NCBI GenBank assembly: GCA_020627535.1
Contig: JAHDGU010000009.1
Location: 62,001-126,000, forward strand
Source: Saprospiraceae bacterium
Lineage (GTDB): Bacteria; Bacteroidota; Bacteroidia; Chitinophagales; Saprospiraceae
Direction of reading: 5' to 3'
DNA: 64,000 nucleotides
The position numbers and the translations under genes were made by a program. This document shows, in pieces, positions 4,280-59,679 of this stretch. The notes under the pieces are model-generated. The model saw only the letters and a program-made list of their open reading frames with translations. It was not told where the DNA came from and made no database searches. The number at the start of each line of letters is the position of its first letter. Position 1 is the first letter of the stretch.

Positions 4280-5223
4280 CAGATATAGCAACGATTACCA
4301 AAAAAGCTACCAGAGATGGATTTGGTGCAGGTCTCCAAGTAGTAGGCCAGAAATATCCCAATGCTGTAGCACTCTGTGCTGATCTCGTCGGATCGCTCAA
4401 GATGCAAGCATTCATCAAAGACAATCCTGAGAGATTCTTTCAAGTAGGCATAGCCGAGGCCAATATGATGGGCATTGCGGCCGGACTAGCTACGGCAGGG
4501 AAGATTCCTTTCACTGGCACATTTGCCAACTTCTCTACGGGCCGAGTTTATGATCAGATCAGACAATCCATCGCCTATAGTCACAAGAATGTCAAGATCT
4601 GTGCATCTCATGCAGGATTGACCCTAGGAGAAGATGGAGCGACTCATCAGATCCTGGAGGATATTGGTATGATGAATATGCTACCAGGTATGACGGTCAT
4701 CAATCCTTGCGATTACAATCAGACCAAGGCAGCCACTGAAGCGATAGCTGAGATTGACGGCCCAGTATATCTGAGATTTGGACGGCCGTCTTGGCCAGTC
4801 TTTACGGAGGAGAGTGACTTTGTCCTAGGCAAGGCGCAGCATATACGTCAAGGCTCGGACATCACCATGATTGCTTGTGGTCATATGGTCTGGCAATGTG
4901 CGCAAGCTGCGGATCAGCTTGCGGCCGAGGGTGTCTCAGTGGATCTTCTCAATATGCATACCATCAAGCCTATCGATCGAGAAGCGGTGATGAAGTCTGC
5001 CAGTAAGACCGGTCGAGTGCTCACGGCAGAAGAGCATCAGATCAATGGAGGCCTTGGCTCGATCGTGGCACAAATCTTGGCAGAAGAGCATCCTGTGCCG
5101 ATGAGTTTTGTCGCTGTCAAGGATTCTTTTGGAGAAAGTGGTAAACCCCTGCAACTTTTGGACAAGTACGGTCTTGGAGTAGCGGATGTAGTGGCTTCCG
5201 CCAAAAAGCTACTGAAAAAATAG
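4276..5223 (+). CDS. Transketolase, C-terminal subunit
   Basis: 315 residues, the pyrimidine-binding and C-terminal domains of the split transketolase. R-F[10 protein letters not shown] near residues 55-66 includes the catalytic glutamate that activates the thiamine cofactor. A transketolase C-domain with H-x-I-K-P-I-D follows at about 225-235. It starts by ATGA overlap with the N-terminal subunit and ends four bases before the next gene. A dispersed hairpin motif lies in the final codons and encodes A-S-A-K-K. Confidence 0.94.
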
Positions 5224-5227
5224 ACTC

Positions 5228-6373
5228 ATGAGAAAGAATAGCAAATACATACACGCAGGTGTGCATCCTGATCCAAGTACAGGTGCCATCATGACACCGA
5301 TATATCAGACCAGCACTTTCGTGCAAACGGCCCCTGGCGAGCACAAGGGCTATGAATATGCCAGGACTCAAAATCCTACAAGGATTACCCTAGAGAATGC
5401 GCTTGCAGAACTTGAAGGCGGTACACATGGAATGTGTTTTGGGAGTGGAATGGCTGCTATGGACGCTGTCGTGAAGTTGCTCAAAACTGGCGATGAAGTC
5501 ATCGCAAGCAATGATCTCTACGGAGGATCTTATCGATTGCTGACCAAGATCTTTGAGCAGTTTGGTATCAAGTCGCACTTTGTCGATATGTCTGATCTGC
5601 AGAATATCAAGGAAAAGATCAATGGCAACACCAAACTGCTATGGGTAGAGACGCCGACCAATCCACTTCTCAGGCTTGTCGATATCCAAGCGCTCACTGA
5701 CCTTGCTAAGGAGAATGGCATCATTAGTTGCGTGGACAATACTTTCGCATCACCTCATCTGCAGACACCCATCGCGCTTGGAGCCGATATTGTCTTGCAC
5801 TCAGCGACCAAGTATCTTGGAGGACACTCAGATTGTGTCCTTGGTGCATTGGTGACCGCAGACGAGCATTTGGCCGAAAGGCTCTATTTCATCCAGAACT
5901 CCTGTGGTGCAGTACCTGGCCCCATGGATAGTTTCTTGGTGCTCAGAGGCATCAAGACTCTGCATGTGCGTGTAGATCGCGCTTGCGCTAATGCGATGAA
6001 GCTGGCGGAGTATCTCAAGGGGCATAAGGCAGTTGGAAGAGTATTGTATCCTGGCTTGGAGGATAATCCATATCATGCACTAGCTGTGGAGCAGATGACT
6101 GGATTTGGCGGGATGATCAGCTTTGATCTGGCCAATGATAGTCAGGAAGCTGCGCGCAAAGTACTCAGCGCCACCAAGGTCTTTGCACTTGCTGAGTCAC
6201 TAGGTGGTGTAGAGTCTCTCATCGGTCATCCGGCGTCTATGACTCATGGATCTATCCCTCGAGATGAGCGTATTGCTGCCGGTCTCATGGACAGCACAAT
6301 CAGGCTCAGTGTGGGTATCGAAGATGTCGAAGATCTCATGGAAGATCTGGATCAGGCGATCGCAGCATCGTAG
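5228..6373 (+). CDS. Cystathionine gamma-synthase or gamma-lyase, PLP dependent
   Basis: 381 residues, close to the family's usual length. The enzyme belongs to the Cys/Met metabolism PLP family, which exchanges or eliminates gamma substituents in transsulfuration. The PLP lysine is Lys195 in S-A-T-K-Y-L-G-G-H. Other family marks are Y-x-R-x-x-N-P-T near residue 45, the G-S-G-M-A-A turn near 73, and E-S-L-G-G-V-E-S-L near the C-terminus. It starts four bases after the transketolase pair, suggesting co-transcription. Sequence alone does not separate synthase (MetB) from lyase activity. Confidence 0.9.
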   Translation: MRKNSKYIHAGVHPDPSTGAIMTPIYQTSTFVQTAPGEHKGYEYARTQNPTRITLENALAELEGGTHGMCFGSGMAAMDAVVKLLKTGDEVIASNDLYGGSYRLLTKIFEQFGIKSHFVDMSDLQNIKEKINGNTKLLWVETPTNPLLRLVDIQALTDLAKENGIISCVDNTFASPHLQTPIALGADIVLHSATKYLGGHSDCVLGALVTADEHLAERLYFIQNSCGAVPGPMDSFLVLRGIKTLHVRVDRACANAMKLAEYLKGHKAVGRVLYPGLEDNPYHALAVEQMTGFGGMISFDLANDSQEAARKVLSATKVFALAESLGGVESLIGHPASMTHGSIPRDERIAAGLMDSTIRLSVGIEDVEDLMEDLDQAIAAS

Positions 6374-7430: not shown

Positions 7431-7468
7431 TCTCTTCTCTATGCACGCTGTTGTCTTAAGGCAAGTAC

Positions 7469-7483
7469 TTTTGGGCGAAAGCC
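7469..7483 (+). repeat. Dispersed GGCGAAAGCC hairpin motif, intergenic copy
   Basis: TTTTGGGCGAAAGCC lies between the HExxH gene and the ABC exporter. It can fold as a short stem capped by GAAA. Its T-rich left part also completes a TACTTTTG (-7-box-like) sequence at 7466-7473. Confidence 0.6.
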
Positions 7484-11338: not shown

Positions 11339-13167
11339 CTACTTAGCTCCTGCTCAAAAAACTTCAATACCTTCTTCGCCTTATCCGCTCCTACACTGCG
11401 CTTGAGTTGAATAAAGCCAGCTTCTTTGACCTTGGTCACTGATCCGTATTCTGTCAGGAGCTTTTTCACTGTAGCTTTCCCAATGCCTGGAATATCATCG
11501 AGACTTGATTTGGTGAAGTCCTTGGAGCGGAGATTGCGGTGAAGCGTGATGGCAAATCTGTGTGCTTCGTTCCTGGCTTGCTGAATGAGTTTGAGTGACT
11601 CAGACTTCTTGTCGATATGCAATGGAATCGGATCTCCTGGAAAATAGATCTCCTCTAGCTTCTTGGCAATGCCAATGACGGTGACCTGATCTTCTATACC
11701 TAGTTCATCGATGCTTTTCATCGCAGAGCTGAGCTGACCTTTACCTCCATCTATGATGATGAGCTGCGGGAGACTCTCATTCTCTCGGATGAGTCTGGAG
11801 TAGCGTCGGTGTACGACCTCAGTCATAGAGGCAAAGTCATCTGGCCCGACTACTGTCTTGATCTTGAAGTGCCGATAGTCCTTTTTGCTCGGCTTGGCAT
11901 TCTTGAAGACGACGCAGCTTGCTGTCGGATTGGTTCCTTGGATATTGGAGTTGTCAAAGCACTCGATGTGCAGTGGCACTTGCTTCATATTGAGATCTGA
12001 CTGTAGGGTCTTGAGGATACGCTCGACACTGGTCTGCCGCTTTTGCTTGGTGGCATCGTCGGCATACTTCTTTTTGAGGAAAAACTCTACGTTCTTCTCG
12101 GATAGCTCTAGGAGCTTACGCTTGTCACCGCGCTTGGGAACAGTCTGGACGAGATCCTCTGGTAAGTCGAGGATCTCCGGGACGATCAGCTCAGGTGCGA
12201 CGCTGTTGAATTTTTCGCGCAAGTGCAGCACACCATACTCTAGGAGGTCCTTTTGATCTTGGTCGAGATTTTTGACCAATTCTTGGGTGAAGCTATTGAT
12301 GATGGCGCCATTGACCACTTTGAGATAGTTGATGAAGGCTGTCTTCTCATCGCCTGTGATCGCAAAGACGTCGACATCGGAGATCTTGGAGTTGACGACC
12401 GTTGACTTGCTCTGATAGTCTTCGAAGGCTTCTAGCCTGATCTTCCACTTCTCGGCTTCTTCAAACTGGAGTTTTTCGGCGAAAGCCGTCATCTGCTCCT
12501 TGATATGATCCTTGACAGGCTTAAACTGCCCCTTGAGGATATTTTTGACCTGTTGGATCTTGTGATTGTAGTCTTCCTCGCTCTCTAGATTGGCGCATGG
12601 ACCGAGACAGTTGTCGATATGGTACTCCAGACAGACTTTGAATTTTTCTTTGTCGATATTGGCTTGACTCAGGTGGTAGCTACAGCTCCTAAGGGGGAAG
12701 AGTGTTTTGATTAATTCTAGAATCACTTTCATCCGCGCCTTGGAAGTATATGGTCCGAAGTACTCGGAGCCATCTCGGATTACCTTCCGTGTAAAGAATA
12801 CACGCGGGAAGCGCTCTTTCTTGATGCAGACATAGGTATAGCTCTTGCCATCCTTGAGCATGACATTGTAGCGGGGCTGAAACTTCTTGATAAGTGTGTT
12901 TTCCAAGAGCAGCGCGTCGACTGCGGTCTCCACGATGGTGAAGTCAAAGTACTTGGCATTCTTGACCATGGTGCGGGTCTTGAAAGCTTGATTCTTGGCT
13001 CCGCTGAAGTAGGAACTTAGGCGATTCTTGAGATTTTTGGCTTTGCCGATATAGATGATATCGTCCTCAGCATTCTTGAACTGATAGACGCCTGGCGAAT
13101 TGGGAAGATTGGGTCTTTGTTTGCGAAATTCTTCTAGTGTCAATGCTCTGAACTCTCTGGATCGCAA
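11335..13167 (-). CDS. uvrC: Excinuclease ABC subunit UvrC
   Basis: 610 residues, the usual length. It makes the dual incision in nucleotide excision repair with UvrA and UvrB. The N-terminal GIY-YIG nuclease (about 20-100: P-G-V-Y-Q-F...I-I-Y-I-G-K-A) is followed by a UvrB-interaction UVR helix pair near 205-240, the RNase H-like nuclease (about 385-540, with C-F-D-N-S-N-I-Q-G and I-I-D-G-G-K-G-Q), and a C-terminal helix-hairpin-helix (I-P-G-I-G). The start is a TTG; no ATG lies nearby. It follows mgsA with a 6-base gap, so the two are probably co-transcribed. Confidence 0.95.
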   Translation of the reverse strand: MRSREFRALTLEEFRKQRPNLPNSPGVYQFKNAEDDIIYIGKAKNLKNRLSSYFSGAKNQAFKTRTMVKNAKYFDFTIVETAVDALLLENTLIKKFQPRYNVMLKDGKSYTYVCIKKERFPRVFFTRKVIRDGSEYFGPYTSKARMKVILELIKTLFPLRSCSYHLSQANIDKEKFKVCLEYHIDNCLGPCANLESEEDYNHKIQQVKNILKGQFKPVKDHIKEQMTAFAEKLQFEEAEKWKIRLEAFEDYQSKSTVVNSKISDVDVFAITGDEKTAFINYLKVVNGAIINSFTQELVKNLDQDQKDLLEYGVLHLREKFNSVAPELIVPEILDLPEDLVQTVPKRGDKRKLLELSEKNVEFFLKKKYADDATKQKRQTSVERILKTLQSDLNMKQVPLHIECFDNSNIQGTNPTASCVVFKNAKPSKKDYRHFKIKTVVGPDDFASMTEVVHRRYSRLIRENESLPQLIIIDGGKGQLSSAMKSIDELGIEDQVTVIGIAKKLEEIYFPGDPIPLHIDKKSESLKLIQQARNEAHRFAITLHRNLRSKDFTKSSLDDIPGIGKATVKKLLTEYGSVTKVKEAGFIQLKRSVGADKAKKVLKFFEQELSS

Positions 13168-13819: not shown

Positions 13820-14929
13820 CTAGAAGATAAATTTCCCGTTTTCATAGATCCTTTCGCCATCTGCCATGATGTAGGCATCGGTGGACATATCGGCGATCAT
13901 GTCCCAGTGTATCGATGATTCATTTTTGCCTCCGCATTGCAAGTAGGCTTGACCGAGCGCGAGATGTACGGTGCCACCTATCTTCTCGTCAAAAAGGATG
14001 TTCTTCGTAAAGCGATCGATCTGTGTATTGGTGCCGATTGCCACTTCTCCAAATCTCTGTGCACCAGGAATCTTCATGACCTTGTCAAGCACATCTTGGC
14101 CACGATCTGCGCTCCATTTGGTCACGAGACCATCCTCGACCCACAGCGTGATGCCCTCAACCTCCGAGCCCATATAGATGGACGGGTAGCTAAAGTGCAC
14201 TACACCATTGACACTGTCTTCTATCGGTGCGGAGAAGACCTCACCTGATGGCATATTGGTCTTGCCATCAGAGTTGATCCAGACCCGATCTTTTACACGA
14301 AAGTGTAGATCAGTGCCGGGTCCATGATAGCTCATTTTATCAGCACGATTGAGCCGCTCTGCAACAGCCGCTTGCATCTCGGAGACTTTCTTCCACTCTT
14401 CCACAGGATCTGTCTTGTCAAGGTGACAAGCCGAGTACACAAAGCTGCGATAGTCATCCAGAGACATGCCTGCATTTTGAGCGGCAGCTAGGGTCGGATA
14501 CTGGCAAGAAGTGCGACGCATACTGCCATTGGCGGTACGCTCGCGATAGTTTTTGGATTGATTCTTAGTTGCTTTGCGTCGCAGTGCCACACGATCTTGG
14601 GGCAGGTTTCCCGCTCCTCGGAGATTGTAGGGTGCGCGGATATCAAGAAATGCATCAAACTCTGCAAAAGCCATTTCCGAGAAAGGCGAAGGAGTCTCCA
14701 AGGCAGTATCAGATCCCGCAGTAATGAGCGTCTTGTACTGGCCTCTGAAGCTGAGACTGGACTCCACAATTACTCCGCGCGCTACACAAAGAGCATATAT
14801 CTCTCTCACGAGCGGCTCTGCAAGCATGGTAGATCGGATGTAGAGCTTATCTGATTCTCGCAGATAGAGAGAGTAGTCCACAAGAAGATGCGCATATCGC
14901 TCTTCGATACTAGGTGCTTGATTTACCAT
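13820..14929 (-). CDS. Aminopeptidase, M29 family
   Basis: 369 residues, matching M29 metalloaminopeptidases (AmpS/AmpT type, about 370-410), which release N-terminal residues in the cytosol with two metal ions. Candidate metal ligands and catalytic residues lie in the last 130 residues: the P-S-G-E-V-F motif near 230, E-V-A-I-G-T-N near 295, H-L-A-L-G-Q-A-Y near 325 and S-x-I-H-W-D near 343. The ATG overlaps the end of hflX by 7 bases; it is the last gene of a five-gene minus-strand run. Confidence 0.9.
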   Translation of the reverse strand: MVNQAPSIEERYAHLLVDYSLYLRESDKLYIRSTMLAEPLVREIYALCVARGVIVESSLSFRGQYKTLITAGSDTALETPSPFSEMAFAEFDAFLDIRAPYNLRGAGNLPQDRVALRRKATKNQSKNYRERTANGSMRRTSCQYPTLAAAQNAGMSLDDYRSFVYSACHLDKTDPVEEWKKVSEMQAAVAERLNRADKMSYHGPGTDLHFRVKDRVWINSDGKTNMPSGEVFSAPIEDSVNGVVHFSYPSIYMGSEVEGITLWVEDGLVTKWSADRGQDVLDKVMKIPGAQRFGEVAIGTNTQIDRFTKNILFDEKIGGTVHLALGQAYLQCGGKNESSIHWDMIADMSTDAYIMADGERIYENGKFIF

Positions 14930-16137
14930 TGTTTTGTCATGTATGGGTAGCGCTTCATATACAGCTCTGAGACTTTGGCCTTGAGCAGAGATCTTAGTTC
15001 TGTGATGTTGTCTCCGGCTTTCGCCGAAATGAGGATGGTCTCACCATCATGTGCTTCGCCAAGTTTTTGATTGAGTTCACCCATGATCTGCTCCTTGTCT
15101 TCTGCAGGAATGAGCGCATCAAAGTAGCGCTCCCGATAGCTGTCGAGCTTATTGTATACCATGATGGTCTCGATGTCAGTAGCACCGAGATTTTTCAAAG
15201 TGCGATTGACCGTATCGACATGATCCTGATATTGAGGATGGGATAGATCTACGACATGGAGAAGCAGGTCTGATTCTTTGACTTCGTCGAGTGTAGACTT
15301 GAAACTCTCGACGAGGTGATGTGGTAGTTTTCTGATGAATCCCACCGTATCCGATAGCAAGAATGGCATTCGATCGAGGACGACTTTGCGGGTGGTAGTG
15401 TCAAGGGTAGCAAAGAGCTTGTCCTCAGCAAATACATCTGATTTGGAGAGCAGATTCATCAGGGTAGACTTGCCGGCATTTGTATATCCTACAAGACCTA
15501 CTCGGATTTGTGCTCCGCGATTTTTGCGTCTGGTTTGGCTTTGGCGATCAATTTTATCAAGTCGATCCTTGAGTTTGGAGATCTTGTCTCTGACGATCCT
15601 ACGATCTGTCTCGATTTCTTTTTCACCTGGTCCTCTCATACCGATACCACCCCGCTGTCTCTCTAAGTGTGTCCATAGACCTCTGAGTCTTGGGAGTAGG
15701 TATTGCAGTTGAGCTAGCTCTACTTGAGTCTTTGCCTGAGCGGTCTGAGCTCGTCGAGCAAATATGTCAAGGATGAGGCTACTACGATCAATGATCTTGA
15801 CAGCAAATTTTTCCTCCAGATTATTGGTCTGCATGGCGCTAAGGTCATCGTCAAATAGCACCATGCTGATATCTTCATGTGAAGCGATGTACTCTGCGAT
15901 TTCCTCGACTTTCCCTTTCCCGATCAAGGTCGTTTTATTGGGATGTTCTCTCTTTTGGACAAAGCGCTTGACGGTCTTGGCTCCTGCCGTGAGTGCAAGG
16001 AACTCAAGCTCATCTAGATACTCCGTGAGTTGCTCTTCGGTCTGATCCCGCTTGATGACACCGACGAGTACAGCATACTCATATTCACGACTATTGACGG
16101 TCCGTTGCTTTTCTCCAATGTTCCAACCGCTACTCAT
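14923..16137 (-). CDS. hflX: GTPase HflX, ribosome-associated
   Basis: 404 residues from the ATG at 16137. HflX binds and splits stalled ribosomes under stress. An N-terminal HflX domain (about 10-150) is followed by a glycine-rich linker (R-G-G-I-G-M-R-G-P-G-E-K-E-I-E-T-D) and a GTP-binding domain with G1 G-Y-T-N-A-G-K-S-T near 205, D-T-V-G-F near 248, N-K-L-D near 320 and S-A-K-A near 365. An upstream in-frame start at 16236 would overlap the lipoprotein gene by 64 bases, so the shorter form is preferred. A dispersed hairpin motif encodes the S-A-K-A segment. Confidence 0.93.
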   Translation of the reverse strand: MSSGWNIGEKQRTVNSREYEYAVLVGVIKRDQTEEQLTEYLDELEFLALTAGAKTVKRFVQKREHPNKTTLIGKGKVEEIAEYIASHEDISMVLFDDDLSAMQTNNLEEKFAVKIIDRSSLILDIFARRAQTAQAKTQVELAQLQYLLPRLRGLWTHLERQRGGIGMRGPGEKEIETDRRIVRDKISKLKDRLDKIDRQSQTRRKNRGAQIRVGLVGYTNAGKSTLMNLLSKSDVFAEDKLFATLDTTTRKVVLDRMPFLLSDTVGFIRKLPHHLVESFKSTLDEVKESDLLLHVVDLSHPQYQDHVDTVNRTLKNLGATDIETIMVYNKLDSYRERYFDALIPAEDKEQIMGELNQKLGEAHDGETILISAKAGDNITELRSLLKAKVSELYMKRYPYMTKQW

Positions 16138-16939: not shown

Positions 16940-18637
16940 CTAGGGGTTCTGAGCTTGCTTGATCTTTTCTTGGAGCTTGGGATCCTTGTAGGGTAGTAAC
17001 TCTGCTGCTCGTGTCCATTGGATCTGGGATTGATCTGATTGTCCAGATTCTGCCAGATAATCTCCATAGGCCATATGAATCAAGGGAGAGTCTTGGAGTT
17101 CTAGCGCTTTTTGAAAGTGCGCTTCTGCTTGCGTTCCAGAGTTCATCTGTGCCTGCGTCAAAGCAAGTATATGGTAGTATTCTGCACTGCTAGGCTCTGG
17201 ATGGGCCTTCAGGATCTCTAGAGCCTTCTTGGCATCGGAGGTGATTTGGGACAGTGCCAAGACCCGATGAGCCGCAGGTGCGTCACTATTGATCTCGATG
17301 GCTTTGAGAGCTAGTTGTTCTGCCGATTTTGGATCTTTCTTTGAGAGGATTTCTGCTTTCAGCAATAATGCACGGTACTGCGCCGCGGGCGTTCTACCTG
17401 TCATGTAGATGTTCTCATCGACTAGATAGAGTGCCTCTTCGTGATCATTCATTTGGGCGAAAGCCCTTGCCGACAGATAGTACAGCTGTGCCTTGTTTGG
17501 GAAAAGGCTCAGTGCTTGGTCACTTTTGTCTGTGATTGCCTTGAAATTGTATGTCTCGTGATACAGATAGAAGAGCTGCTCCCAGACTTGATAATTGGTA
17601 TTGCGCAGCTCGATGGTCTGCTCGTAGTAGCTGATGGCTTGATCTACTTCTCCAAGCTGAGCTGTGACATCTCCAGCAATGGCATAGCTCTTGGCGTCGT
17701 AGGGATGTGTCTGGACCAAGATCTCCGTGGCCTCCAAGAGCGCTGGTCCCAGTTCAGCTTTATCCTCTTGCACAAATTTCTCGACAAATGGGATGAGCTG
17801 TTTGATCTTATCATCCAACTCCACCGTGCTATTAGCTAGCGCTGTCTTGAGTACAGTGATCTGTTCATCTTCGGGCTGACTCTCACGGCCGATGGCAGCA
17901 TACTGTATGGAGGCTTGGGAGTGCTCTGGATCAATCTGCAAAATGCGGCCATAGAGCTTCTTGGCCTCAGCATCTTGATTCCTACTGGCCTTGTGATTGG
18001 CGTATTGGAGTAGGATGGTGGTATTGTCAGGGAAAGCAGACAGGTAGTCTTGCATCACTTCCTCAGTCTTGTCATAGTCTTTGGTGCGCTTATAAATATC
18101 AAAGAGTCTTAAGGTGTTTTCTTCTGTGGGGCCAAGGAGCTTTTTGTGATCTTCTAGGGCCTGAGCCGCTTGCTTCAGGTTTCCTGCTTTCAGCTCTGAG
18201 AAAGCGAGTGAAATGTGATAGTCTGGTTCTGCAGGAAACTGTTGACTCAGTCTGCGATAAATCTCCGAGGCTGCAGGAAACTGTAGTGCATCTTCTTTGT
18301 ACTTGGCATAAGTGAGATAGTACCAAGCATTACTTGGATTCATAGTGATCGCCCGATCAAAAAATTTGTCGGCATCATCCACACGATCGAGAGCTGCGTA
18401 GCATCTCGCTTTTTCGTACATGGCCACATCATTTTGAGCATCTAGTTCTAGGACTGCGTCGTAGCCCTCTATGGCCTTGTCATAGTTCTGTAGGAGAAAA
18501 TCCGTCTGTGCGGCAATGAGTTTTTCTTCCGTCTGAATCTCGAGGACTTCTACGCGTGTAGGCCCTTGAGCAATTGCCGATATAGAAAGGCACAGATAGA
18601 GTGCCAAAGAGAGGTGTGATTTCATCTTATTGTTCAT
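16940..18637 (-). CDS. Secreted tetratricopeptide-repeat protein
   Basis: 565 residues with a signal peptide (about 1-23, cleavage after A-I-A-Q likely) and then at least ten TPR-like helical pairs over nearly the whole length (for example A-M-Y-E-K-A-R-C-Y-A-A-L-D near 75, Y-Y-L-S-A-R-A-F-A-Q-M near 385). It is probably a periplasmic scaffold. The pairing with a DUF4292 lipoprotein two bases downstream suggests a joint envelope role. The final residues approach the next start without overlap. A dispersed hairpin motif at 17450-17466 encodes its A-F-A-Q-M segment. Confidence 0.85.
   Translation of the reverse strand: MNNKMKSHLSLALYLCLSISAIAQGPTRVEVLEIQTEEKLIAAQTDFLLQNYDKAIEGYDAVLELDAQNDVAMYEKARCYAALDRVDDADKFFDRAITMNPSNAWYYLTYAKYKEDALQFPAASEIYRRLSQQFPAEPDYHISLAFSELKAGNLKQAAQALEDHKKLLGPTEENTLRLFDIYKRTKDYDKTEEVMQDYLSAFPDNTTILLQYANHKASRNQDAEAKKLYGRILQIDPEHSQASIQYAAIGRESQPEDEQITVLKTALANSTVELDDKIKQLIPFVEKFVQEDKAELGPALLEATEILVQTHPYDAKSYAIAGDVTAQLGEVDQAISYYEQTIELRNTNYQVWEQLFYLYHETYNFKAITDKSDQALSLFPNKAQLYYLSARAFAQMNDHEEALYLVDENIYMTGRTPAAQYRALLLKAEILSKKDPKSAEQLALKAIEINSDAPAAHRVLALSQITSDAKKALEILKAHPEPSSAEYYHILALTQAQMNSGTQAEAHFQKALELQDSPLIHMAYGDYLAESGQSDQSQIQWTRAAELLPYKDPKLQEKIKQAQNP
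17450..17466 (+). repeat. Dispersed hairpin motif inside the TPR gene
   Basis: CATTTGGGCGAAAGCCC, identical over 17 bases to the copies at 59189 and (complement) 47465, although the three sit in unrelated contexts. Confidence 0.65.
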
Positions 18638-34292: not shown

Positions 34293-34295
34293 TGC

Positions 34296-34600: not shown

Positions 34601-34626
34601 TTAGTCTTTACTTAGTCTTAGACTAA
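34601..34626. promoter_or_regulatory. Operator-like repeats before the Xis-Rep unit
   Basis: TTAGTCTT at 34601 recurs at 34612, where it belongs to the perfect 15-bp palindrome TTAGTCTTAGACTAA (34612-34626). The 11-base offset is one helical turn. The site lies in the only gap of this half of the element, so it is the natural control point for excision and replication genes. Confidence 0.6.
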
Positions 34627-34632
34627 TTTCAA

Positions 34633-35367: not shown

Positions 35368-35368
35368 A

Positions 35369-36938: not shown

Positions 36939-36954
36939 GCGGTCCGGACGGGAC
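36939..36954. repeat. Right attachment site (within tRNA-Asp 3' end)
   Basis: Same 16 bases as 29980-29995. Because the copy is exact, the tRNA remains intact after integration. Confidence 0.88.
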
Positions 36955-37013
36955 TCGAACCCGCGACCTCCTGCGTGACAGGCAGGCATTCTAACCAACT
37001 GAACTACCGGACC
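36940..37013 (-). tRNA. tRNA-Asp (anticodon GTC)
   Basis: 74 bases. Acceptor stem GGTCCGG/CCGGACC with discriminator G, D-loop with AGTTGGTTAGA, anticodon loop CTGTCAC, T-arm GGTTCGAGTCC. No CCA encoded. It is the integration target of the adjacent element. Confidence 0.97.
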
Positions 37014-38877: not shown

Positions 38878-38894
38878 CATTTTCGCGAAAGCGC
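38878..38894 (+). repeat. Dispersed hairpin motif, intergenic variant
   Basis: CATTTTCGCGAAAGCGC between the DUF4442 and TPR genes. The stem has CGC/GCG in place of GGC/GCC, so the base pairs changed together while the CATTTT start and GAAA loop stayed. Confidence 0.5.
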
Positions 38895-42204: not shown

Positions 42205-42223
42205 TTTTTTTGGGTGAAAGCCC
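42205..42223 (+). repeat. Dispersed hairpin motif in the fadD-rpsA gap
   Basis: TTTTTTTGGGTGAAAGCCC; one G-T wobble in the stem. It lies between divergent genes, so it cannot be a terminator for either. Confidence 0.55.
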
Positions 42224-47464: not shown

Positions 47465-47481
47465 GGGCTTTCGCCCAAATG
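47465..47481 (-). repeat. Dispersed hairpin motif between clpP and clpX
   Basis: Complement reads CATTTGGGCGAAAGCCC. It lies between two co-directional genes of the Clp operon and lacks a T run, so it is not a normal terminator; it could affect mRNA stability between the genes. Confidence 0.6.
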
Positions 47482-49689: not shown

Positions 49690-49706
49690 TGCCTTTCGGC
49701 AAAATG
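49690..49706 (-). repeat. Dispersed hairpin motif, GC-swapped variant
   Basis: Complement CATTTTGCCGAAAGGCA; the stem GCC/GGC is swapped relative to the consensus, but CATTTTG and the GAAA loop are kept. It lies 31 bases downstream of tRNA-Leu. Confidence 0.45.
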
Positions 49707-49988: not shown

Positions 49989-52208
49989 ATGCAAGCCGCT
50001 ATCGACATATCGACCTTACATGATCGCGACGAATTGGCCGTGATCAAAAGAGCTTATCGCAAGGTGAGAAACTCGATCCGTCATCTCATGGATGACAAGG
50101 ACGAGCGCGATATGGATCTAGCTCTTGAGATTGCCATAGATGCCCATCATGATCAGCGCCGGAAGTCGGGTGAGCCTTACATTTTACATCCTATCGAGGT
50201 CGCACGCATTTGTGTAGACGAGATCGGTCTTGGACCTACAGCTATTGTCGCTGCGATTTTGCATGACGTGGTGGAGGACTCAGATTATACATCTGAGCAA
50301 ATACATGAGATGTTTGGGGCCAAGATCGGATCGATCGTCGATGGCCTGACCAAGCTGAAAGGGCTATATGATGTCGGCAGCATGCAGGCCGAGAACTTCA
50401 AGAGAGTATTGTCATCTCTGGTTCAAGATGTACGTGTCGTCCTCATCAAGATGGCTGATCGCTTGCACAATCTTCGTACAGCTGGTGCGATGCCGAGAGA
50501 AAAACAGTTGAAGATAGCCAGTGAGACCATGTATATCTATGCGCCACTAGCACATAGATTGGGTCTCTACAGTTTCAAGACAGAGTACGAAGATCTCTGC
50601 ATGAAGCTCACCGATCGTGATACATACAGCATGGTCGCCAAGAAGCTCCAGGAGACTAAGCGTGCACGCAACAAGTACATCAAGGAATTTATCACACCGC
50701 TCAGTGAGCAGATCGGAGAACTAGATGTGCCCTTTAGGATATTTGGAAGACCCAAGTCGATCTTCTCTATATCCAATAAGATCAAGAAGAAAAAAGTCCC
50801 CTTTGAAGAGATCTACGACCTCTTTGCCATCCGTATTGTCGTAGACGTTCCTGTCGAGAAGGAGAAATCTATCTGTTGGCAGGTCTACAGCATCGTCACC
50901 GATGTTCATCAGCCGATCCCAGAGAGATTAAAAGATTGGGTGACGACTCCAAAGTCTAATGGATATGAGTCTCTACACACGACTGTGATTGGTCCACAAG
51001 GTCGCTTTGTCGAAGTGCAGATTCGCTCAGAACGCATGGATCAGATTGCTGAGCGAGGCTTCGCTGCACACTGGAAGTACAAGGGCCTCAAGAAGATGAA
51101 TGTCTATGACATCTGGCTTGACAATGTGCGAGAGATGATGGACTCACCAGGTAGCAGTACCAATACCATGGAGTTTGTCTCGGACTTCAAGACCAATCTA
51201 TGGGCAGAAGAGGTATTTGTCTACACGCCAAAGGGTGACCTGAAGATTTTGCCGAAAGGCGCTACTGCACTGGACTTCGCTTTTGCCATCCACTCCGATA
51301 TAGGATATCACTGCACCGGCGTCAAGGTCAATAATAAGATCGTCCCCATGGGATATAAACTCTCTCATGGTGATCAAGTATCTGTTCTCACAAACAAGAG
51401 TCAAAAGCCCAATGAGTCTTGGCTCAAGTCGGTCGTTACAGGCAAGGCACGCAGCAAGATCAGAAGCTCACTCAAAGAAGAAAAACGGAAGCAAGGAGAA
51501 CTCGCCAAGGAGAATCTCATGCGGAAGTTTAAGAATCTCAAGATTGGCTTTGAAGACAATATAGACACAGTCGTCCAGCACTTTGGCTTTGAGTCACGAC
51601 CCGAGCTCTACTTTGCACTGGCCACAGGTAAGTTGACGATAAATCTCAAAGAAGAGTTCACCGTCGTCAACAATCGCCTGACACCACCCGAAAAGAAGAA
51701 AGTCGAAAAGACCGAAGAAGTCAAGCGCCCACGCAAGAGTAGCAATCAGAAACAACCCAAGATCTTTATCAATGGAGAACCTGGCAATGTGTACGAGTAT
51801 GCGCTCGCTACCTGCTGCAATCCTGTCAAGGGTGATAGCATATTTGGCTATACGAGTCTCAAGTCTGGGTTGAAGATCCATCGCTTCACCTGTCCCAATG
51901 CCACACACCTCTTGGCCAACTATGCTACAAGGGTAGTACCGGTCAATTGGGCATCAGATATTGGAAGTAGCTTCACAGTTGATCTAGTGATCAATGGCAT
52001 GGATGATGGGCCGGGTGTCGTAGAGCGGATATCCAATAAGATCTCTTCACAACTAGGAATCAATATCCGGAGTTTTCAGATTAAGGGTGATGAGGGATAC
52101 TTTGAAGGTAGAGTCGGGATCATTGTCAACAATGTCAATCAGCTCAATATGGTGATCAATGAGCTCAAGAAGATGGAGAACATTTCCTCTGTGACAAGGA
52201 TTAACTAG
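49989..52208 (+). CDS. Bifunctional (p)ppGpp synthetase/hydrolase, RelA/SpoT family
   Basis: 739 residues. An HD hydrolase domain (about 45-190: H-D-V-V-E-D near 97) precedes a synthetase domain (about 240-360: A-I-R-I-V-V-D-V...S-N-G-Y-E-S-L-H-T-T near 327), a TGS domain (about 400-460: V-F-V-Y-T-P-K-G-D) and a C-terminal ACT domain (about 665-739). It sets stringent-response alarmone levels. fur follows after 4 bases. Confidence 0.95.
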   Translation: MQAAIDISTLHDRDELAVIKRAYRKVRNSIRHLMDDKDERDMDLALEIAIDAHHDQRRKSGEPYILHPIEVARICVDEIGLGPTAIVAAILHDVVEDSDYTSEQIHEMFGAKIGSIVDGLTKLKGLYDVGSMQAENFKRVLSSLVQDVRVVLIKMADRLHNLRTAGAMPREKQLKIASETMYIYAPLAHRLGLYSFKTEYEDLCMKLTDRDTYSMVAKKLQETKRARNKYIKEFITPLSEQIGELDVPFRIFGRPKSIFSISNKIKKKKVPFEEIYDLFAIRIVVDVPVEKEKSICWQVYSIVTDVHQPIPERLKDWVTTPKSNGYESLHTTVIGPQGRFVEVQIRSERMDQIAERGFAAHWKYKGLKKMNVYDIWLDNVREMMDSPGSSTNTMEFVSDFKTNLWAEEVFVYTPKGDLKILPKGATALDFAFAIHSDIGYHCTGVKVNNKIVPMGYKLSHGDQVSVLTNKSQKPNESWLKSVVTGKARSKIRSSLKEEKRKQGELAKENLMRKFKNLKIGFEDNIDTVVQHFGFESRPELYFALATGKLTINLKEEFTVVNNRLTPPEKKKVEKTEEVKRPRKSSNQKQPKIFINGEPGNVYEYALATCCNPVKGDSIFGYTSLKSGLKIHRFTCPNATHLLANYATRVVPVNWASDIGSSFTVDLVINGMDDGPGVVERISNKISSQLGINIRSFQIKGDEGYFEGRVGIIVNNVNQLNMVINELKKMENISSVTRIN

Positions 52209-52803: not shown

Positions 52804-54075
52804 ATGGCCGTAGATGTACTTCTTGGTCTCCAGTGGGGAGATGAAGGCAAGGGAAAAATTGTGGATTATCTTGCACCTCAGTATGATGTCGTGTGTAGAT
52901 TCCAAGGTGGCCCCAACGCTGGTCATACTATCATCATCAAAGGGAACAAGCATGTCCTGCATACGATCCCGTCGGGCATCTTCAGACCGGATACGATGAA
53001 TGTCATCGGCAATGGTGTAGTCATAGATCCGATCACAATGTGCAGAGAGCTTGATAATCTCATTGATGCTGGACTGAGTCCTACAGAGAATCTGCTCGTG
53101 GCACGCAAAGCACATCTCATCCTACCCACGCACAGGATGCTAGATGCAGCCTCGGAGGCAAGCAAGGGAGATCAAAAGATTGGAAGTACGCTCCGAGGGA
53201 TCGGGCCGACATACATGGACAAGACTGGTCGCAACGGTCTACGTATCGGAGATATTGAGTCAGAGGGCTTCCGCCAAAAGTACTCGGCACTCAAAGAAAA
53301 GCATCTTGGGCTGCTTGCCATCTATCCGCAGATTGACTTTGATCTTGAAGCAGAGGAAGTGAAGTGGTTTGAGGCGATCGATCGTGTGCGCGAGCTGCCA
53401 AAGACGGACTGTGAATACTATCTCTACAAGGCCATCAAGGCAGACAAAAATATCTTGGCCGAAGGAGCCCAAGGGACAATGCTCGATATTGACTATGGCA
53501 CCTATCCGTACGTCACTTCCTCCAATACTATGACTGCCGGTGTATGCACTGGTCTCGGTCTGGCACCACATCATATCGATAAGGTGATCGGCATCAGCAA
53601 GGCATATTGCACCCGCGTAGGATCGGGGCCCTTCCCGACAGAGCTCGAAGGGCCAGTGGCAGAAAAGCTCCGTAAGAATGGAGCAGAATTTGGAGCAACA
53701 ACTGGTAGGCCGCGGAGATGTGGATGGATCGATATCCCACAGCTCAAGTATAGCATCATGATCAATGGCTTGACGCATCTAGTGCTGACCAAGATTGATT
53801 GCCTCAATGATTTTGAAGAGCTATCGGCCGCTACACACTATAAGTCCGCCGATGGTACGACTGATCAACTGCCTTATGATCTCAATAGTGCTGAGGTCGA
53901 ACCAGTCTACCAGAGCTATCCTGGGTGGAACCAGGATATCGGTCACTGCACAGATCGTTCTTCCTTGCCGACAGATCTTGAAGACTACATCTCACAGCTT
54001 GAGAGAATGCTCGATACCAAGATTTACCTCCTGTCCACAGGTCCAGAGAGAGATGAGTTGATTCATTGCTCTTAG
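52804..54075 (+). CDS. purA: Adenylosuccinate synthetase
   Basis: 423 residues. It converts IMP and aspartate to adenylosuccinate with GTP. The P-loop-like G-x-Q-W-G-D-E-G-K-G-K near 9-18 and catalytic H in G-P-N-A-G-H-T near 40 are intact; Q-G-T-M-L-D-I-D-Y-G-T-Y-P-Y near 225 is also typical. It follows fur after 81 bases. Confidence 0.96.
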   Translation: MAVDVLLGLQWGDEGKGKIVDYLAPQYDVVCRFQGGPNAGHTIIIKGNKHVLHTIPSGIFRPDTMNVIGNGVVIDPITMCRELDNLIDAGLSPTENLLVARKAHLILPTHRMLDAASEASKGDQKIGSTLRGIGPTYMDKTGRNGLRIGDIESEGFRQKYSALKEKHLGLLAIYPQIDFDLEAEEVKWFEAIDRVRELPKTDCEYYLYKAIKADKNILAEGAQGTMLDIDYGTYPYVTSSNTMTAGVCTGLGLAPHHIDKVIGISKAYCTRVGSGPFPTELEGPVAEKLRKNGAEFGATTGRPRRCGWIDIPQLKYSIMINGLTHLVLTKIDCLNDFEELSAATHYKSADGTTDQLPYDLNSAEVEPVYQSYPGWNQDIGHCTDRSSLPTDLEDYISQLERMLDTKIYLLSTGPERDELIHCS

Positions 54076-54079: not shown

Positions 54080-55354
54080 CTACTGCTCTGTACAATCACC
54101 ACCTACTCGTAGACTGAGTCTGCCAATGCGCTGGGCATAGGCATGGTATTTCCAGTTGGCGTAGTCATTGGCATCTATGCACAGGATCGTGCCTGCCTCG
54201 TGCCTTGTGGCTAGATTGTCTACTTTGAGGATTATTTCTTCATCTCGGATGACATGTCCATATCTCGAGAAGCCAATGATAAGAGTGGTGATGATAACCA
54301 GAGCAGAAATGATGGCCACAACTCTTTTTCGCGAAAGCGACCAAGAAATATGCTCTAGCAGATCGTCGTAGCGCTCAGCCAAGAATATCAACCAAATGAT
54401 CAATCCAGGATATAGATAGTGGGCATGCAGCTTCGGACTGACGAGCAATGGCAAAGTCGCGCTTAGGCTGATCAATGCAAGACTCTTGGATCTCTGAGAA
54501 ATGCCAGGCTGTAGCTTCACCTTCCTGCCAAGTATATACAGGATCAAGAGTGGTATCCCCATTTCTATCGCTGCACGCAATACAAATTCCCCACGTGCAG
54601 AAAGCTCGCGCTGTCCAGTGATGCTTGCCGATACCTGCTGATCCCAATATGCACCCCAGTTCATCAAAGCTTCTGGACTCTGATAGATAAAGGCTGCTGT
54701 CCCAGCTAGAATCACGAGTATGGCGAGTAAGCAGACCAGTGCCCGTCTCCAAGTTGTCTCGCCCAATGAAACCAAGATTAAGGGAGACGCAAGAGGGAAT
54801 AAGGCAACTGGACCTTTGATATGTATGGCTACTACGAGTAGTAGACCAGCCACTAGACTATAGCTCACGCACACTACGAGCTTTCTCTCTGCTTTCAAGG
54901 CTTGATAGGTGGTATATATACAGAGCAGACAAGCAAGGCAGAGGCTCAACTCCAGCATCACATTGCGAGAAGTCCAAAGGCACAGTGGGCTCAGAGCCAT
55001 CAGTGGTATGATCAGCTTACTCTGAGTGATCTTGTAGGAAATACCAATCGTACACACATAAAGTACGAGACCATAAAGCCTCTCGACCCACCAGTGATCC
55101 CCAAAGAGTCGAAAAGGCAAGCTCTCTAGCCAAAGTCCCAGCGGTGGGTGCTCAAAAAATTGCGGATAGAGTGTTTCGGTATAGTGTGGAGACCAAAATG
55201 TACCTTGACCTATAGCCAGATTTCGCGCAATGGCAGCGTAGGTAGTCCCGTCGAGGAACATACCTCGAGTCCATAGACCAAGTAGTAGGGCTAGGCTCAG
55301 GAGAGCAAAGCCAATCCAAACTACAGGATGAATATTGGATAGTGTGCGCAACAT
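54080..55354 (-). CDS. Glycosyltransferase family 39-like membrane protein
   Basis: 424 residues with about ten membrane helices. The N-terminal loop has F-L-D-G-T-T-Y near 34, and the F-E-H-P-P-L-G-L-W-L segment near 67 matches the ArnT/PMT-type lipid-linked sugar transferases. No soluble C-domain. It probably adds a sugar to a lipid or protein in the envelope; the substrate is not predictable. It converges on purA with 4 bases between the stops. Confidence 0.82.
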   Translation of the reverse strand: MLRTLSNIHPVVWIGFALLSLALLLGLWTRGMFLDGTTYAAIARNLAIGQGTFWSPHYTETLYPQFFEHPPLGLWLESLPFRLFGDHWWVERLYGLVLYVCTIGISYKITQSKLIIPLMALSPLCLWTSRNVMLELSLCLACLLCIYTTYQALKAERKLVVCVSYSLVAGLLLVVAIHIKGPVALFPLASPLILVSLGETTWRRALVCLLAILVILAGTAAFIYQSPEALMNWGAYWDQQVSASITGQRELSARGEFVLRAAIEMGIPLLILYILGRKVKLQPGISQRSKSLALISLSATLPLLVSPKLHAHYLYPGLIIWLIFLAERYDDLLEHISWSLSRKRVVAIISALVIITTLIIGFSRYGHVIRDEEIILKVDNLATRHEAGTILCIDANDYANWKYHAYAQRIGRLSLRVGGDCTEQ

Positions 55355-57617: not shown

Positions 57618-58575
57618 GGATGATTGCTTGGATTTTTTCTACAGCTTTATAGAGGTCGAGATCTCCTCGGAGGATGGCTTCTCTGATGGCTTGATACTCT
57701 TGTGTATGACGGGCTTTCGCCCAAAAGTGCTGGAGGATTAGCTCCTCAGTTTTGTGCTGGAGCCAATGTGCAGCCTGCGCATGGCGAAGTGACTTCAAGT
57801 GCAGATTCATCTCATCTTGCCATTGTAACACAGTGTTCCAGACAGATTCAAGGCCGTCACCCGTATGTGCAGAGCAACTCAAGACCTTGCGATCCCAGCG
57901 GTCGTGTTTGGGTCGCATGTAGTGAGCAGCGTTTCTATATTGTTTCTTGGTCTTTGCAACGGCAGATCTGAAGTCTCCATCATCCTTGGTGACGACGATC
58001 AAATCTGCGATCTCTACGATTCCTTTTTTGATACCCTGCAGCTCATCTCCACCTGCTGCTTGGATGAGTAGAATGGTGATATCTGTGGCGTAGGAAACGT
58101 CGAGCTCAGATTGCCCTACACCCACAGACTCGATAAATAGAATGTCGTAGCGTGCTGCTTCACAAAGGCGTATGATATCGATCGATCTGGAGCTGAGTCC
58201 ACCAAGTTGTGTACCAGATGGGCTAGAACGTACAAAGGCTCGCTCATGACGCGAGAGCCGATCCATCCTGGTCTTGTCACCTAGGATGCTGCCTTGACTC
58301 GTAGGGCTAGATGGGTCCACTGTCAAAGCACAGATAGACTTTCCGAGATCAATGAGATAGAGTCCAAATGCCTCAATGAAACTACTCTTACCAACTCCTG
58401 GAGGACCAGTCACGCCGATTTTGAGTGTTTGGGGATGAGCTGGCAATTGTTTGATGAGGTCTTCGGCGAGCCTCATTTTGGCGGAAGCCTTAGACTCGAG
58501 AAGGGTAATGGCCTGAGCCATCGCTTTGCGATCCTTGTTCTTAATCTTATTGATCAGCGCTTCGTCGATTGTCAT
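57610..58575 (-). CDS. meaB: Methylmalonyl-CoA mutase-associated GTPase MeaB/ArgK
   Basis: 321 residues. It is a G3E-family GTPase that guards loading of adenosylcobalamin on methylmalonyl-CoA mutase. Walker A G-P-P-G-V-G-K-S-S near 58, E-S-V-G-V-G-Q-S-E near 146 (Walker B region), and V-T-K-D-D-G-D near 194 are visible. Two dispersed hairpin motifs fall inside the coding sequence in opposite directions, encoding W-A-K-A (57711) and A-S-A-K-M (58474). Confidence 0.94.
   Translation of the reverse strand: MTIDEALINKIKNKDRKAMAQAITLLESKASAKMRLAEDLIKQLPAHPQTLKIGVTGPPGVGKSSFIEAFGLYLIDLGKSICALTVDPSSPTSQGSILGDKTRMDRLSRHERAFVRSSPSGTQLGGLSSRSIDIIRLCEAARYDILFIESVGVGQSELDVSYATDITILLIQAAGGDELQGIKKGIVEIADLIVVTKDDGDFRSAVAKTKKQYRNAAHYMRPKHDRWDRKVLSCSAHTGDGLESVWNTVLQWQDEMNLHLKSLRHAQAAHWLQHKTEELILQHFWAKARHTQEYQAIREAILRGDLDLYKAVEKIQAIIHD
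57711..57730 (-). repeat. Dispersed hairpin motif in the MeaB gene, copy A
   Basis: Complement GCACTTTTGGGCGAAAGCCC. The coding strand gives F-W-A-K-A. Confidence 0.6.
58474..58493 (+). repeat. Dispersed hairpin motif in the MeaB gene, copy B
   Basis: CATTTTGGCGGAAGCCTTAG. Opposite orientation to copy A 760 bases away; the coding strand gives K-A-S-A-K-M. Confidence 0.55.
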
Positions 58576-58788
58576 CTGACTCTTAATGATATGTCAAAAG
58601 TACAGCCCTATCTAGCTAAGTATCTTAGCGTCTTGTCAATTAGGACTTCCTTATGATAGGTCTCGGTGCTGATAGGGCAGATTTGTATTGCCGACGGCCC
58701 GCAGCCCCATTGATTAGTTGAATACAACAACAGGGTAAGACGGCACACTTGCTCTATGAGGCTAGGCTGTCGGTTTTATCTATGGAGA
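58576..58788. other. Gap between MeaB and the mutase small subunit
   Basis: 213 bases without a convincing gene. GCCCTATC (58605-58612) and GATAGGGC (58671-58678) form an 8-bp inverted repeat with a long loop. A second pairing, GACGGC... / ...GCTGTC, occurs near 58740-58773. No cobalamin riboswitch core was recognised. Confidence 0.3.
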
Positions 58789-59679
58789 TCAATCAGACTC
58801 AGGGTTCATCTGATCAAACATGGCCAAGCTGATGCGATCTATCATGTACGAGCCCATGGCTGGATCTGAGTGAATTCCCATTTTTGCCTCTTCCATAAGA
58901 AGGTAGTAGCTGTTCCGGAGTGTCTTGAGCAATTGGGAGTCTTGAATCTTGTCAGTGGGGTCAAGGGATATCAAGTCTGCACGAGCCATCATGGCTGACA
59001 TCATTTGTGAGGATACAGAAAGTGAGGTTGCCCCCATGTCATCTGATCTCACGGGAAGGCGACACTCTATGACGATGTCACAAGGCAAGGAGTATTTACT
59101 GATAAGAGAAGAGAGATAGGCCCTTGCCGCTCTCAGGGCGGCTATCAGCATGAGCTGTCGATCCGTGGCCGTTATTACCCATGTGATACATTTGGGCGAA
59201 AGCCCACTCTGAAAGATCTGTCGAGTCTCTTGACTCAGCGCTATGAGTGTCGTGACCAGATCTACTTCCTCTGTAGAGAGCAGAATGTGATCTGACGAAG
59301 TGTCGGTTGATCGATGCGAGATGTCTAGTCTGGATGATGGTCCATCGGATTGGGAGATCGCCTTGATCCAGTCTAGATGTACCCCTTGCAGAAGTCCTGC
59401 AAGATCACTGTGTTGATAATTGATGATCGGTATTTGAAGTCCTTGACCAAGAGCTTCAAGGAGTCTTTCATTGTTGACGGCATCGTCTGAGAAATATTCT
59501 GCCAACTGGCTGGGGGCAGAAGGCCAAGATACAGAGCCAAATATTTCAACTGCGCGTTGATCCGCATCAAAGTGGACTGCAGCGATGCGCTGATCACCGA
59601 CCCTCCAGTCAAGATGCGCGGTGCCATCTGATTTGAGTTCTTTTGATGCTTTGTTTTCCCAGATTTTGGATGGATCCAT
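58789..59679 (-). CDS. Methylmalonyl-CoA mutase small subunit-like protein, short form
   Basis: 296 residues; usual small subunits have 460-620 residues. The start (I-W-x-x-K-A-S-K-E-L-K) and H-S-D-P-A-M-G-S-Y near 270, equivalent to D-P-A-G-G-S-Y of mutases, show homology. The C-terminal cobalamin-like domain and part of the barrel are absent. MeaB lies downstream on the same strand. No large subunit is in the window. It may be a trimmed but functional scaffold subunit or a decayed gene; the reading frame is intact. Confidence 0.72.
   Translation of the reverse strand: MDPSKIWENKASKELKSDGTAHLDWRVGDQRIAAVHFDADQRAVEIFGSVSWPSAPSQLAEYFSDDAVNNERLLEALGQGLQIPIINYQHSDLAGLLQGVHLDWIKAISQSDGPSSRLDISHRSTDTSSDHILLSTEEVDLVTTLIALSQETRQIFQSGLSPKCITWVITATDRQLMLIAALRAARAYLSSLISKYSLPCDIVIECRLPVRSDDMGATSLSVSSQMMSAMMARADLISLDPTDKIQDSQLLKTLRNSYYLLMEEAKMGIHSDPAMGSYMIDRISLAMFDQMNPESD
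59189..59205 (+). repeat. Dispersed hairpin motif inside the mutase gene
   Basis: CATTTGGGCGAAAGCCC, identical to the TPR and clpP-clpX copies. The coding strand gives G-L-S-P-K-C. Confidence 0.65.

Follow-up and report, generated by a model that had tools for sequence, protein, structure and literature searches.

Hairpin sites in the 64-kb window

The window (the whole 64-kb stretch of DNA analysed) comes from a member of the Saprospiraceae (Bacteroidota), genome G000, and held copies of a short hairpin element in and between genes that include uvrC, purA, relA/spoT, meaB, and a pyruvate kinase gene (Table 1). We scored a site as strict when it read NNTTTN, NNC, GNMA, and then a paired GNN. 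There were 25 strict sites in the window, and 100 windows simulated with a Markov-1 model had a mean of 0.16 and a maximum of 2. With up to 3 mismatches TTTTGGGCGAAAGCCC occurred 14 times vs 0.23 in shuffles, and with up to 1 mismatch GGCGAAAGCC occurred 17 times vs 2.3. The original prediction of a dispersed, recurrent hairpin motif held up, with more copies than the 19 places it had listed. Eighteen of these were strict sites to within 2 bases; the remaining one, at 42205, was a near-variant. Seven strict sites (starting at 1355, 5314, 5867, 14290, 14474, 45752, and 51245) were additional. As predicted, strict sites lay on both strands and both within (19/25) and between (6/25) genes. The motif had also been called absent from 30.0–36.9 kb, an element with a tyrosine integrase adjoining tRNA-Asp, and indeed no strict site fell between 25,338 and 38,878.

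Table 1 Hairpin sites and one near-variant in the window.
Sequence	Position	Strand	Context
CTTTTTGGCGGCAGCC	1355..1370	+	in gene 197-1552
CTTTTTGGCGGAAGCC	5193..5208	-	
CGTTTGCACGAAAGTG	5314..5329	-	paired CAC/GTG stem
CATTTGGCCGAAAGGC	5867..5882	+	
CTTTTGGGCGAAAGCC	7468..7483	+	intergenic
TTTTTCGGCGAAAGCC	12472..12487	+	antisense in uvrC
CTTTTACACGAAAGTG	14290..14305	+	
ATTTTGAGCGGCAGCT	14474..14489	+	paired AGC/GCT stem
CATTTCGGCGAAAGCC	15016..15031	-	
CATTTGGGCGAAAGCC	17450..17465	+	
CATTTCGGCGAAAGCC	18992..19007	-	in pyruvate kinase gene
TCTTTTCGCGAAAGCG	24682..24697	+	
CTTTTTGGCGGAAGCC	25283..25298	+	
GTTTTGAGCGAAAGCT	25323..25338	-	paired AGC/GCT stem
CATTTTCGCGAAAGCG	38878..38893	+	intergenic
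CATTTTGGCGAAAGCC	39170..39185	-	
TTTTGGGTGAAAGCCC	42208..42223	+	near-variant, not a strict site
CATTTTGGCGCAAGCC	45752..45767	+	
CATTTGGGCGAAAGCC	47466..47481	-	intergenic in gene model used
CATTTTGCCGAAAGGC	49691..49706	-	intergenic; flipped stem
GATTTTGCCGAAAGGC	51245..51260	+	in relA/spoT; site also in G001 orthologue
ACTTTTGGCGGAAGCC	53266..53281	-	antisense in purA; site also in G001 orthologue
CTTTTTCGCGAAAGCG	54324..54339	+	intergenic
CTTTTGGGCGAAAGCC	57712..57727	-	in meaB
CATTTTGGCGGAAGCC	58474..58489	+	antisense in meaB
CATTTGGGCGAAAGCC	59189..59204	+	intergenic

Stem pairing and genome-wide distribution

The element is asymmetric, with a T-rich 5' flank (C-W-TTT-K) leading into a mini-hairpin whose 3–4 bp stem ends in a C-G closing pair around a GNMA loop. 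Constancy is limited to TTT and the CGNMAG frame; paired stems differ freely in sequence, and in place of the fixed sequence core of DUS and USS the G000 sample had 12 stem types and its congener G001 had 14. Both outer stem positions were paired at 212/258 flank-plus-core sites in G000 (16 expected by chance) and at 94/108 in G001 (7 expected), using flank, loop, and pairing definitions fixed post hoc from the data, separately per genome. Two further pairing counts, 187/194 and 187/205, had shuffled means of 114 and 106. Pairing was at chance level in four motif-poor relatives (2/24) and in Sphingobacteriaceae (2/60). The stem of the element is set by pairing rather than by sequence, and these counts strongly support the earlier suggestion, made from stem bases that change together, of a recognised structure. 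The T run lay upstream of the hairpin at 187 sites and downstream at 5 and the loop is not palindromic, which argues against a symmetric duplex site like HIP1.

A 464-kb sample of G000 contained 187 strict copies, about 1 per 2.5 kb, which extrapolates to about 1,600 in the 4.09-Mb genome. Exact TTTNGGCGAAAGCC occurred 401 times genome-wide (199 forward and 202 reverse), and its reversed control 0 times. As with DUS and USS, over-representation was strong, in both orientations, and within and between genes. Of the 187 sampled sites, 66 were in sense orientation, 92 were antisense, and 26 were intergenic, and copies occurred on both strands and in each of the six frames. Fully genic sites numbered 158 where gene coverage predicted 161, and genic and intergenic densities were equal at ~4 per 10 kb. 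Shuffles that keep codon use had been proposed as a check, and the motif was far above their expectation: coding sequences held 158 sites vs 5.2 (range 2–9) in 20 synonymous, protein-preserving shuffles and 1.45 when codon order was shuffled. Of the 137 sites in a count along genes, 24 lay in their first tenth.

A comparison of density between core and foreign DNA had also been proposed, and codon scores gave no support to depletion in foreign genes, as atypical genes were not poorer in sites (4.3 sites per 10 kb in the fifth of genes with the least typical codon use, 3.2 in the most typical fifth). There were 10 sites (1.4 per 10 kb) in the low-GC fifth of genes vs 50 (6.5 per 10 kb) in the high-GC fifth, but this does not establish a core/foreign contrast because the motif itself is G+C-rich and the codon scores showed no depletion.

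Dialects and turnover within the Saprospiraceae

The hairpin element has genus-specific dialects within the Saprospiraceae, and in being taxon-specific within a family these match DUS and USS. There were 727 copies of WTTTGCCGAAAGGC in G147, 580 in G097, and 51 in G000, while WTTCGGCGAAAGCC had 607 in G045 and 8 in G000; these patterns were derived from samples of G147 and G045, both inside the counted panel. Since TTTCGGCGAAAGCC matches both TTTNGGCGAAAGCC and WTTCGGCGAAAGCC, the counts of these two overlap, above all in G045. The first form, TTTNGGCGAAAGCC, was absent from 115 of 298 Saprospiraceae genomes, and in the class sample every genome outside the family had at most 12 copies. Among 22 relatives that were motif-poor by the first pattern, 20 had at most one copy each of WTTTGCCGAAAGGC and WTTCGGCGAAAGCC, the exceptions being G018 and G104 with 41 and 14 copies of another dialect. 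The flank was weakly visible in the 40-kb samples of G113 and G044.

The motif trait is scattered on a DprA tree, the only use we made of that tree, which is poorly resolved and kept one row (G285) with an end branch of length 10 that is probably a wrong ORF. Three groups taken together required 18 changes vs 22.3 when shuffled (0/200 as low), and the ‘present’ group alone clustered no better than chance (149/500 as low).

Turnover was high between the congeners G000 and G001, where 16 of 20 aligned sites were not conserved. The four conserved sites, one with a paired stem change, represent a modest excess, because the seven fixed positions survive in 9% of random aligned 16-mers. Insertion as the source of genic copies was rejected: orthologues could be aligned for 8 of the 19 in-gene sites of the window, and 152 of the resulting 154 alignments were gapless at the site. 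A viral origin was also rejected: two exact patterns matched 24 and 64 viral stretches, always as a single copy, in a collection that may leave out records very near the window's genome.

Candidate roles and comparison with known systems

ComEC was present in 44/44 genomes tested and DprA in 50/51, and neither discriminates because both are equally present in motif-poor genomes. The PilM_2 model matched in 39/44 genomes, 38 above the cut-off, always over stretches of only 37–107 residues, and the three matching proteins we checked (G000, G058, and G063) were FtsA. Against FtsA the one match in G000 scored 395 bits, compared with 29 against PilM (cut-off 133). Judged by PilM, G000 thus showed no type IV pilus machinery, and there is no support for the pilus route by which known uptake sequences act.

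The reading we favour, unproven and with slightly less than an even chance of being right, is that the hairpin is a DNA-level self-recognition mark, like an uptake sequence but read as a hairpin. A protein would read the hairpin structure in DNA, either on single strands or as hairpins extruded from supercoiled duplex, and would thereby mark it as self. This would most likely take place in natural transformation, or else in some other route of recombination that single strands feed. Marked DNA would be preferentially taken up or recombined, and this bias would drive point mutations toward the motif, as for Neisseriaceae and Pasteurellaceae uptake sequences. An uptake-like signal was one of three options in the original prediction and is the best of them by distribution and dialects, although the variable core and the PilM result do not fit it. 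More tentatively, much of the Saprospiraceae may tag its chromosomes with a signal that lies in how the DNA folds and not in its sequence: a T-rich tail followed by a C(GNMA)G mini-hairpin, which a putative protein would read in single-stranded or extruded DNA to tell self from foreign.

A Chi-like recombination or repair signal is a doubtful alternative, in which the hairpin would be read on the strand unwound at a double-strand break and would regulate a helicase-nuclease or RecA loading. The density of sites, their spread over coding and non-coding DNA, and a structure easiest to read in single-stranded DNA are consistent with it. However, leading and lagging strands were nearly balanced (96:91 by local GC skew, 21 stretches), Chi sites are short fixed words unlike this 16–17 nt structured site with dialects, and many family members lack the first form, most motif-poor ones nearly lacking the other dialects tested as well. 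We consider it unlikely that the element is a chromosome-organising or single-strand-initiation site, at which a protein with an architectural, priming, or transcription role would bind supercoil-extruded hairpins, much as the N4 virion RNA polymerase does at its promoters. The C(GNMA)G loop shares the closing features of N4 promoters, but sites occur across genes in all frames and both orientations, with near-random spacing on the tested 200 kb of contig C1, and are absent from related genera.

The other two original options fared worse. An RNA hairpin (GNRA-type) or terminator acting in transcripts is highly improbable: GAAA and GGAA loops are compatible with RNA GNRA, but GACA, GGCA, and GTCA made up 40 of 189 TTT-flanked C-GNNA-G sites, antisense copies outnumbered sense copies, the T run precedes the hairpin, and at gathering score Rfam recognised nothing in the window beyond two tRNAs. 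Still less credible is a REP/RAYT-like or other mobile mini-element copied by a hairpin-reading transposase. REP sequences likewise have a short 5' tract adjoining a hairpin, but Y1_Tnp (PF01797) had no match in G000 (99.67% complete) and matched 5 of 14 control genomes, sites were not confined to intergenic DNA, and the gapless orthologue alignments gave no sign of insertion. A by-product of codon or amino-acid usage has almost no chance of being correct, since despite recurring peptides at sites (e.g., AFAQ and ILAKA) the protein-preserving shuffles and the equal intergenic density speak against it.

If the self-recognition reading is true, a hairpin motif kept by compensatory changes would show that a chromosome can carry its signature in the secondary structure of DNA, with a bearing on the choice of DNA by Bacteroidota that lack type IV pili. 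As far as we are aware, it would have no precedent as a structural mark for uptake or self-recognition, and none within Bacteroidota. The literature searched, mostly outside subscription journals and bioRxiv preprints, yielded no report of the motif. Its dialects make the mark testable by stem swaps and may allow mobile DNA to be matched to its host in metagenomes; Saprospiraceae were encountered here mainly as metagenome assemblies.

Genome-wide interspersed recognition motifs known to us are few (uptake sequences, Chi, KOPS, and HIP1) and all are sequence words. Known uptake sequences are fixed words, and we know of none with a hairpin as a feature; DUS are read by the type IV pilus system, and Pasteurellaceae USS have a fixed core word without a hairpin. 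Going by excerpts of PMC3630211, Neisseriaceae DUS are words of 10–12 bases built round a conserved CTG core. Their role in transformation is proven, and they occur as hundreds to thousands of short interspersed copies, with dialects and with five genomes that have no obvious DUS. The Saprospiraceae element resembles this description in its many short interspersed copies within one family, its dialects, and the members lacking it, and differs in a stem free in sequence if paired, another phylum, no PilM seen in G000, and a function that is unproven. Pasteurellaceae USS, in the excerpted text of PMC2346458, are over-represented; within reading frames one orientation outnumbers the other, and the genome as a whole has no general bias of orientation. 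Our element shares these properties as given there, with a hairpin instead of a fixed core word. Cyanobacterial HIP1 (GCGATCGC) is likewise frequent genome-wide with exceptions among relatives, as stated in part of PMC4390886. HIP1 is a perfect palindrome with methyltransferase sites, whereas the Saprospiraceae element lacks symmetry and has a loop between arms that covary. In the portion of PMC4496689 consulted, extrusion of N4 promoters depends on a C:G loop-closing pair and a loop 5'G and 3'A, and stem bases that are not conserved are tolerated if they pair. To that extent the N4 virion RNA polymerase promoters are alike, being DNA mini-hairpins with a C:G closing pair, a G...A loop, and non-conserved stem bases that matter only as pairs, but they are a few phage promoters, and the Saprospiraceae element occupies hundreds of chromosomal sites with no polymerase implied.

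A T-flanked hairpin abundant in the host genome

The original prediction described a dispersed hairpin motif with about 18 copies in the window, and the motif is real: TTTTGGGCGAAAGCCC, at up to three mismatches, occurred 14 times in the window vs 0.23 expected, and a second form, GGCGAAAGCC, at up to one mismatch, 17 times vs 2.3 expected. Across the host genome (G000; 4.09 Mb in 25 contigs), TTTNGGCGAAAGCC was present in 199 forward and 202 reverse copies, and the control pattern, read backwards, in none. Our main sample comprised 464 kb, the window together with 20 further 20-kb stretches, in which the profile around GCGAAAGC had C-W-T-T-T-K preceding the hairpin and little signal beyond. 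TTT held a fixed upstream place in 189 of 413 C-G-closed three-bp hairpins with a GNNA loop, compared with 568/16,711 of all three-pair hairpins, the former included. The T run was confined to the 5' side (187 upstream vs 5 downstream). Loops of the 189 TTT-flanked sites were GAAA (100), GACA (28), GGAA (27), GTAA (13), GGCA (8), GCAA (5), GTCA (4), GCCA (2), GAGA (1), and GGGA (1), making 187 of the G-N-M-A type. C-G-closed GNNA loops are a stable DNA tetraloop family, d(cGNNAg) (Nakano 2002, as cited in PMC8373063), and a C in the third loop position departs from the GNRA rule of RNA. Five typed consensus strings had predicted single-stranded DNA folding energies of -4.4 to -6.6 kcal/mol.

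The stem is maintained through pairing. At sites where one outer pair formed, so did its partner in 187/194 and 187/205 cases, the shuffled values being 114 and 106. A fourth pair was present in 97/187 sites of the G000 sample (52 shuffled) and 82/95 sites of G001, labelled as the same genus (48 shuffled). Beyond it, the base opposite the Ts was A in 20-37% of sites in G000 and 16-26% in G001, so stems in these two do not generally extend further; shuffles cannot assess pairing with the Ts because these are fixed by definition. The G045 dialect may have a longer stem, compatible with A in 35-54% of sites. With only the flank and CGNMAG core fixed, where chance gives both outer pairs in 1 of 16, both were found in 212/258 sites in G000, 94/108 in G001, 84/116 in G147, 86/111 in G045, 25/71 in G042, 12/15 in G097, 11/14 in G053, and, among sampled loci, 8/9 in L047 and 6/10 in L030; flanks were picked after inspecting the data, making exact P values unreliable. 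Pairing was at chance level in four motif-poor relatives (2/24) and in Sphingobacteriaceae loci (2/60). Stems were diverse, with 12 kinds in the G000 sample, 14 in G001, and six among the seven TTTT-flanked hairpins of L030 (CALDUE010000017.1).

Placement and turnover of copies

Sites wholly within genes numbered 158 of 187 (161 expected from coverage under a simple gene model), with 26 intergenic and 3 at gene edges. Codon and protein composition did not account for them, as protein-keeping shuffles gave 5.2 coding-sequence sites vs the observed 158. Genic sites used all frames (66 sense, 92 antisense), and no orientation bias relative to GC skew was found (96:91). Over 200 kb of host contig C1, spacing came close to random, with a coefficient of variation of 1.06 vs 0.98 in simulations. 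Density rose from 1.4 sites per 10 kb in the lowest gene-GC fifth to 6.5 in the highest, and no such trend appeared across fifths of genes by codon typicality. The noted absence of the motif from the integrase-bearing element beside tRNA-Asp held, though a 13.5-kb gap alone proves little. Among matches to the window's RelA-type protein, the closest came from Saprospiraceae metagenome assemblies (best 57-63% identity).

Features of the window with their probable assignments
Position	Feature	Assignment
26393-29785	1130-aa ORF; sole match Por_Secre_tail at the C end, sub-threshold	probably a type IX secreted protein
30066-36757	A+T-richer block; six ORFs with no Pfam match	probable integrative element, motif-free
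35369-36757	tyrosine integrase, within the block	
36939-37013	tRNA-Asp, alongside the block	

Orthologues were available for 8 of 19 in-gene window sites and were gap-free at the site in 152/154 alignments (certain loci overlap, and two genes supply 88 and 47 of the alignments), so these copies are not insertions. In 50.9 kb aligned between G000 and G001 (69.6% identity), both genomes had the site at 4/20 G000 and 4/14 G001 sites, against a baseline in which random aligned 16-mers retained the motif's seven fixed positions in 9% of cases. One shared site preserved the hairpin via a paired change (ATTTTGGCCGAAAGGC vs ATTTTTCCCGAAAGGG). The other 16/20 G000 sites were not conserved, indicating fast turnover. 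Identity was 0.61 at the 20 sites vs 0.67 in flanks, as if motif gain cost amino-acid changes.

Taxonomic range and dialects

The exact GGC form occurred at least once in 183 of 298 family genomes and at least 20 times in 49 table rows by hand count, G000 included; its reversed control never totaled more than 3. Class-wide, 395 genomes were sampled, six rows of them from the family, and 12 copies were not exceeded by any non-family member. Outside Saprospiraceae, three genomes of family f70, genus g192, had 6 (G377), 9 (G413), and 12 (G531) copies of TTTNGGCGAAAGCC, many TTTCGG, exceeding most of that sample; a congener, G505, had no copies. The pattern in these genomes may represent a weak relative of the motif.

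Samples yielded two further dialects, whose genome-wide copy numbers were obtained for a selection of 51 genomes, of which the first pattern marks 29 as motif-rich and 22 as motif-poor. WTTTGCCGAAAGGC reached 727 copies in G147, 580 in G097, 439 in G311, 285 in G153, 241 in G044, and 223 in G173 (51 in G000), and WTTCGGCGAAAGCC 607 in G045, 132 in G148, and 120 in G086 (8 in G000), with reversed controls totaling 3 and 5 across the 51. Twenty of the 22 motif-poor genomes had at most one copy of each, the exceptions being G018 (41) and G104 (14) for WTTTGCCGAAAGGC. Motif-bearing samples spanned about 35 to 60% G+C. L047 (CALCJP010000038.1) had an apparent further dialect, ATTT + CGC-GAAA-GCG with an A-rich 3' side, in 6 copies in 12 kb. 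The 39 kb of G042 in stretches L182-L183 contained 39 C(GNNA)G hairpins, mostly preceded by TT, with many A/T-containing stems, so word counts underestimate the motif there. Other over-represented 10-mers were AACTTTAAAC (G147), ATTTCTACGA (G091), TGAGTGTGAG (G045), and AACCCGCAAC (G004), some of which may be local tandem repeats.

Candidate functions

The data above demonstrate the motif's structure and distribution; from them we infer that it has a reader protein and confers a benefit. The hairpin and T tail would be read by a protein at the DNA level, for which the N4 virion RNA polymerase makes a feasible precedent: its promoter hairpins are described as extruding at sub-physiological supercoiling and as requiring a C:G closing pair and loop G and A, other stem bases being tolerated if paired (PMC4496689). 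Uptake-biased accumulation would yield family dialects, even strand use, genic copies arising by point change, and fast turnover; since these features were found, we tentatively favor a role for the motif in marking self DNA, either for uptake or for recombination fed by single strands. Neither the codon-typicality nor the tree results support that reading, and the motif may instead have a Chi-like or architectural role. REP/RAYT transposase origin, viral origin, and a known RNA family were rejected: G000 had no PF01797 (Y1 transposase) match, viral contigs carry exact copies only singly, and Rfam matches in the window were two tRNAs only.

ComEC (44/44) and DprA (50/51 tested genomes) were present in motif-rich and motif-poor genomes alike, leaving transformation possible and not implicated. 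PilM_2 matched only short stretches in 39/44 genomes; in G000 the matching protein proved to be FtsA (395 bits, cut-off 176) and not PilM (29, cut-off 133), and two other matching proteins checked are FtsA as well. For the bacteroidote Riemerella, PMC8459023 reports transformation with ComEC, DprA, ComF, RecA, and four proteins that have no homologues in well-known machinery. PMC7965970 reports own-DNA preference in R. columbina, where the over-represented words quoted are A-rich candidates. Within-family dialects like those of the Saprospiraceae motif are documented for the DUS of Neisseriaceae (PMC3630211).
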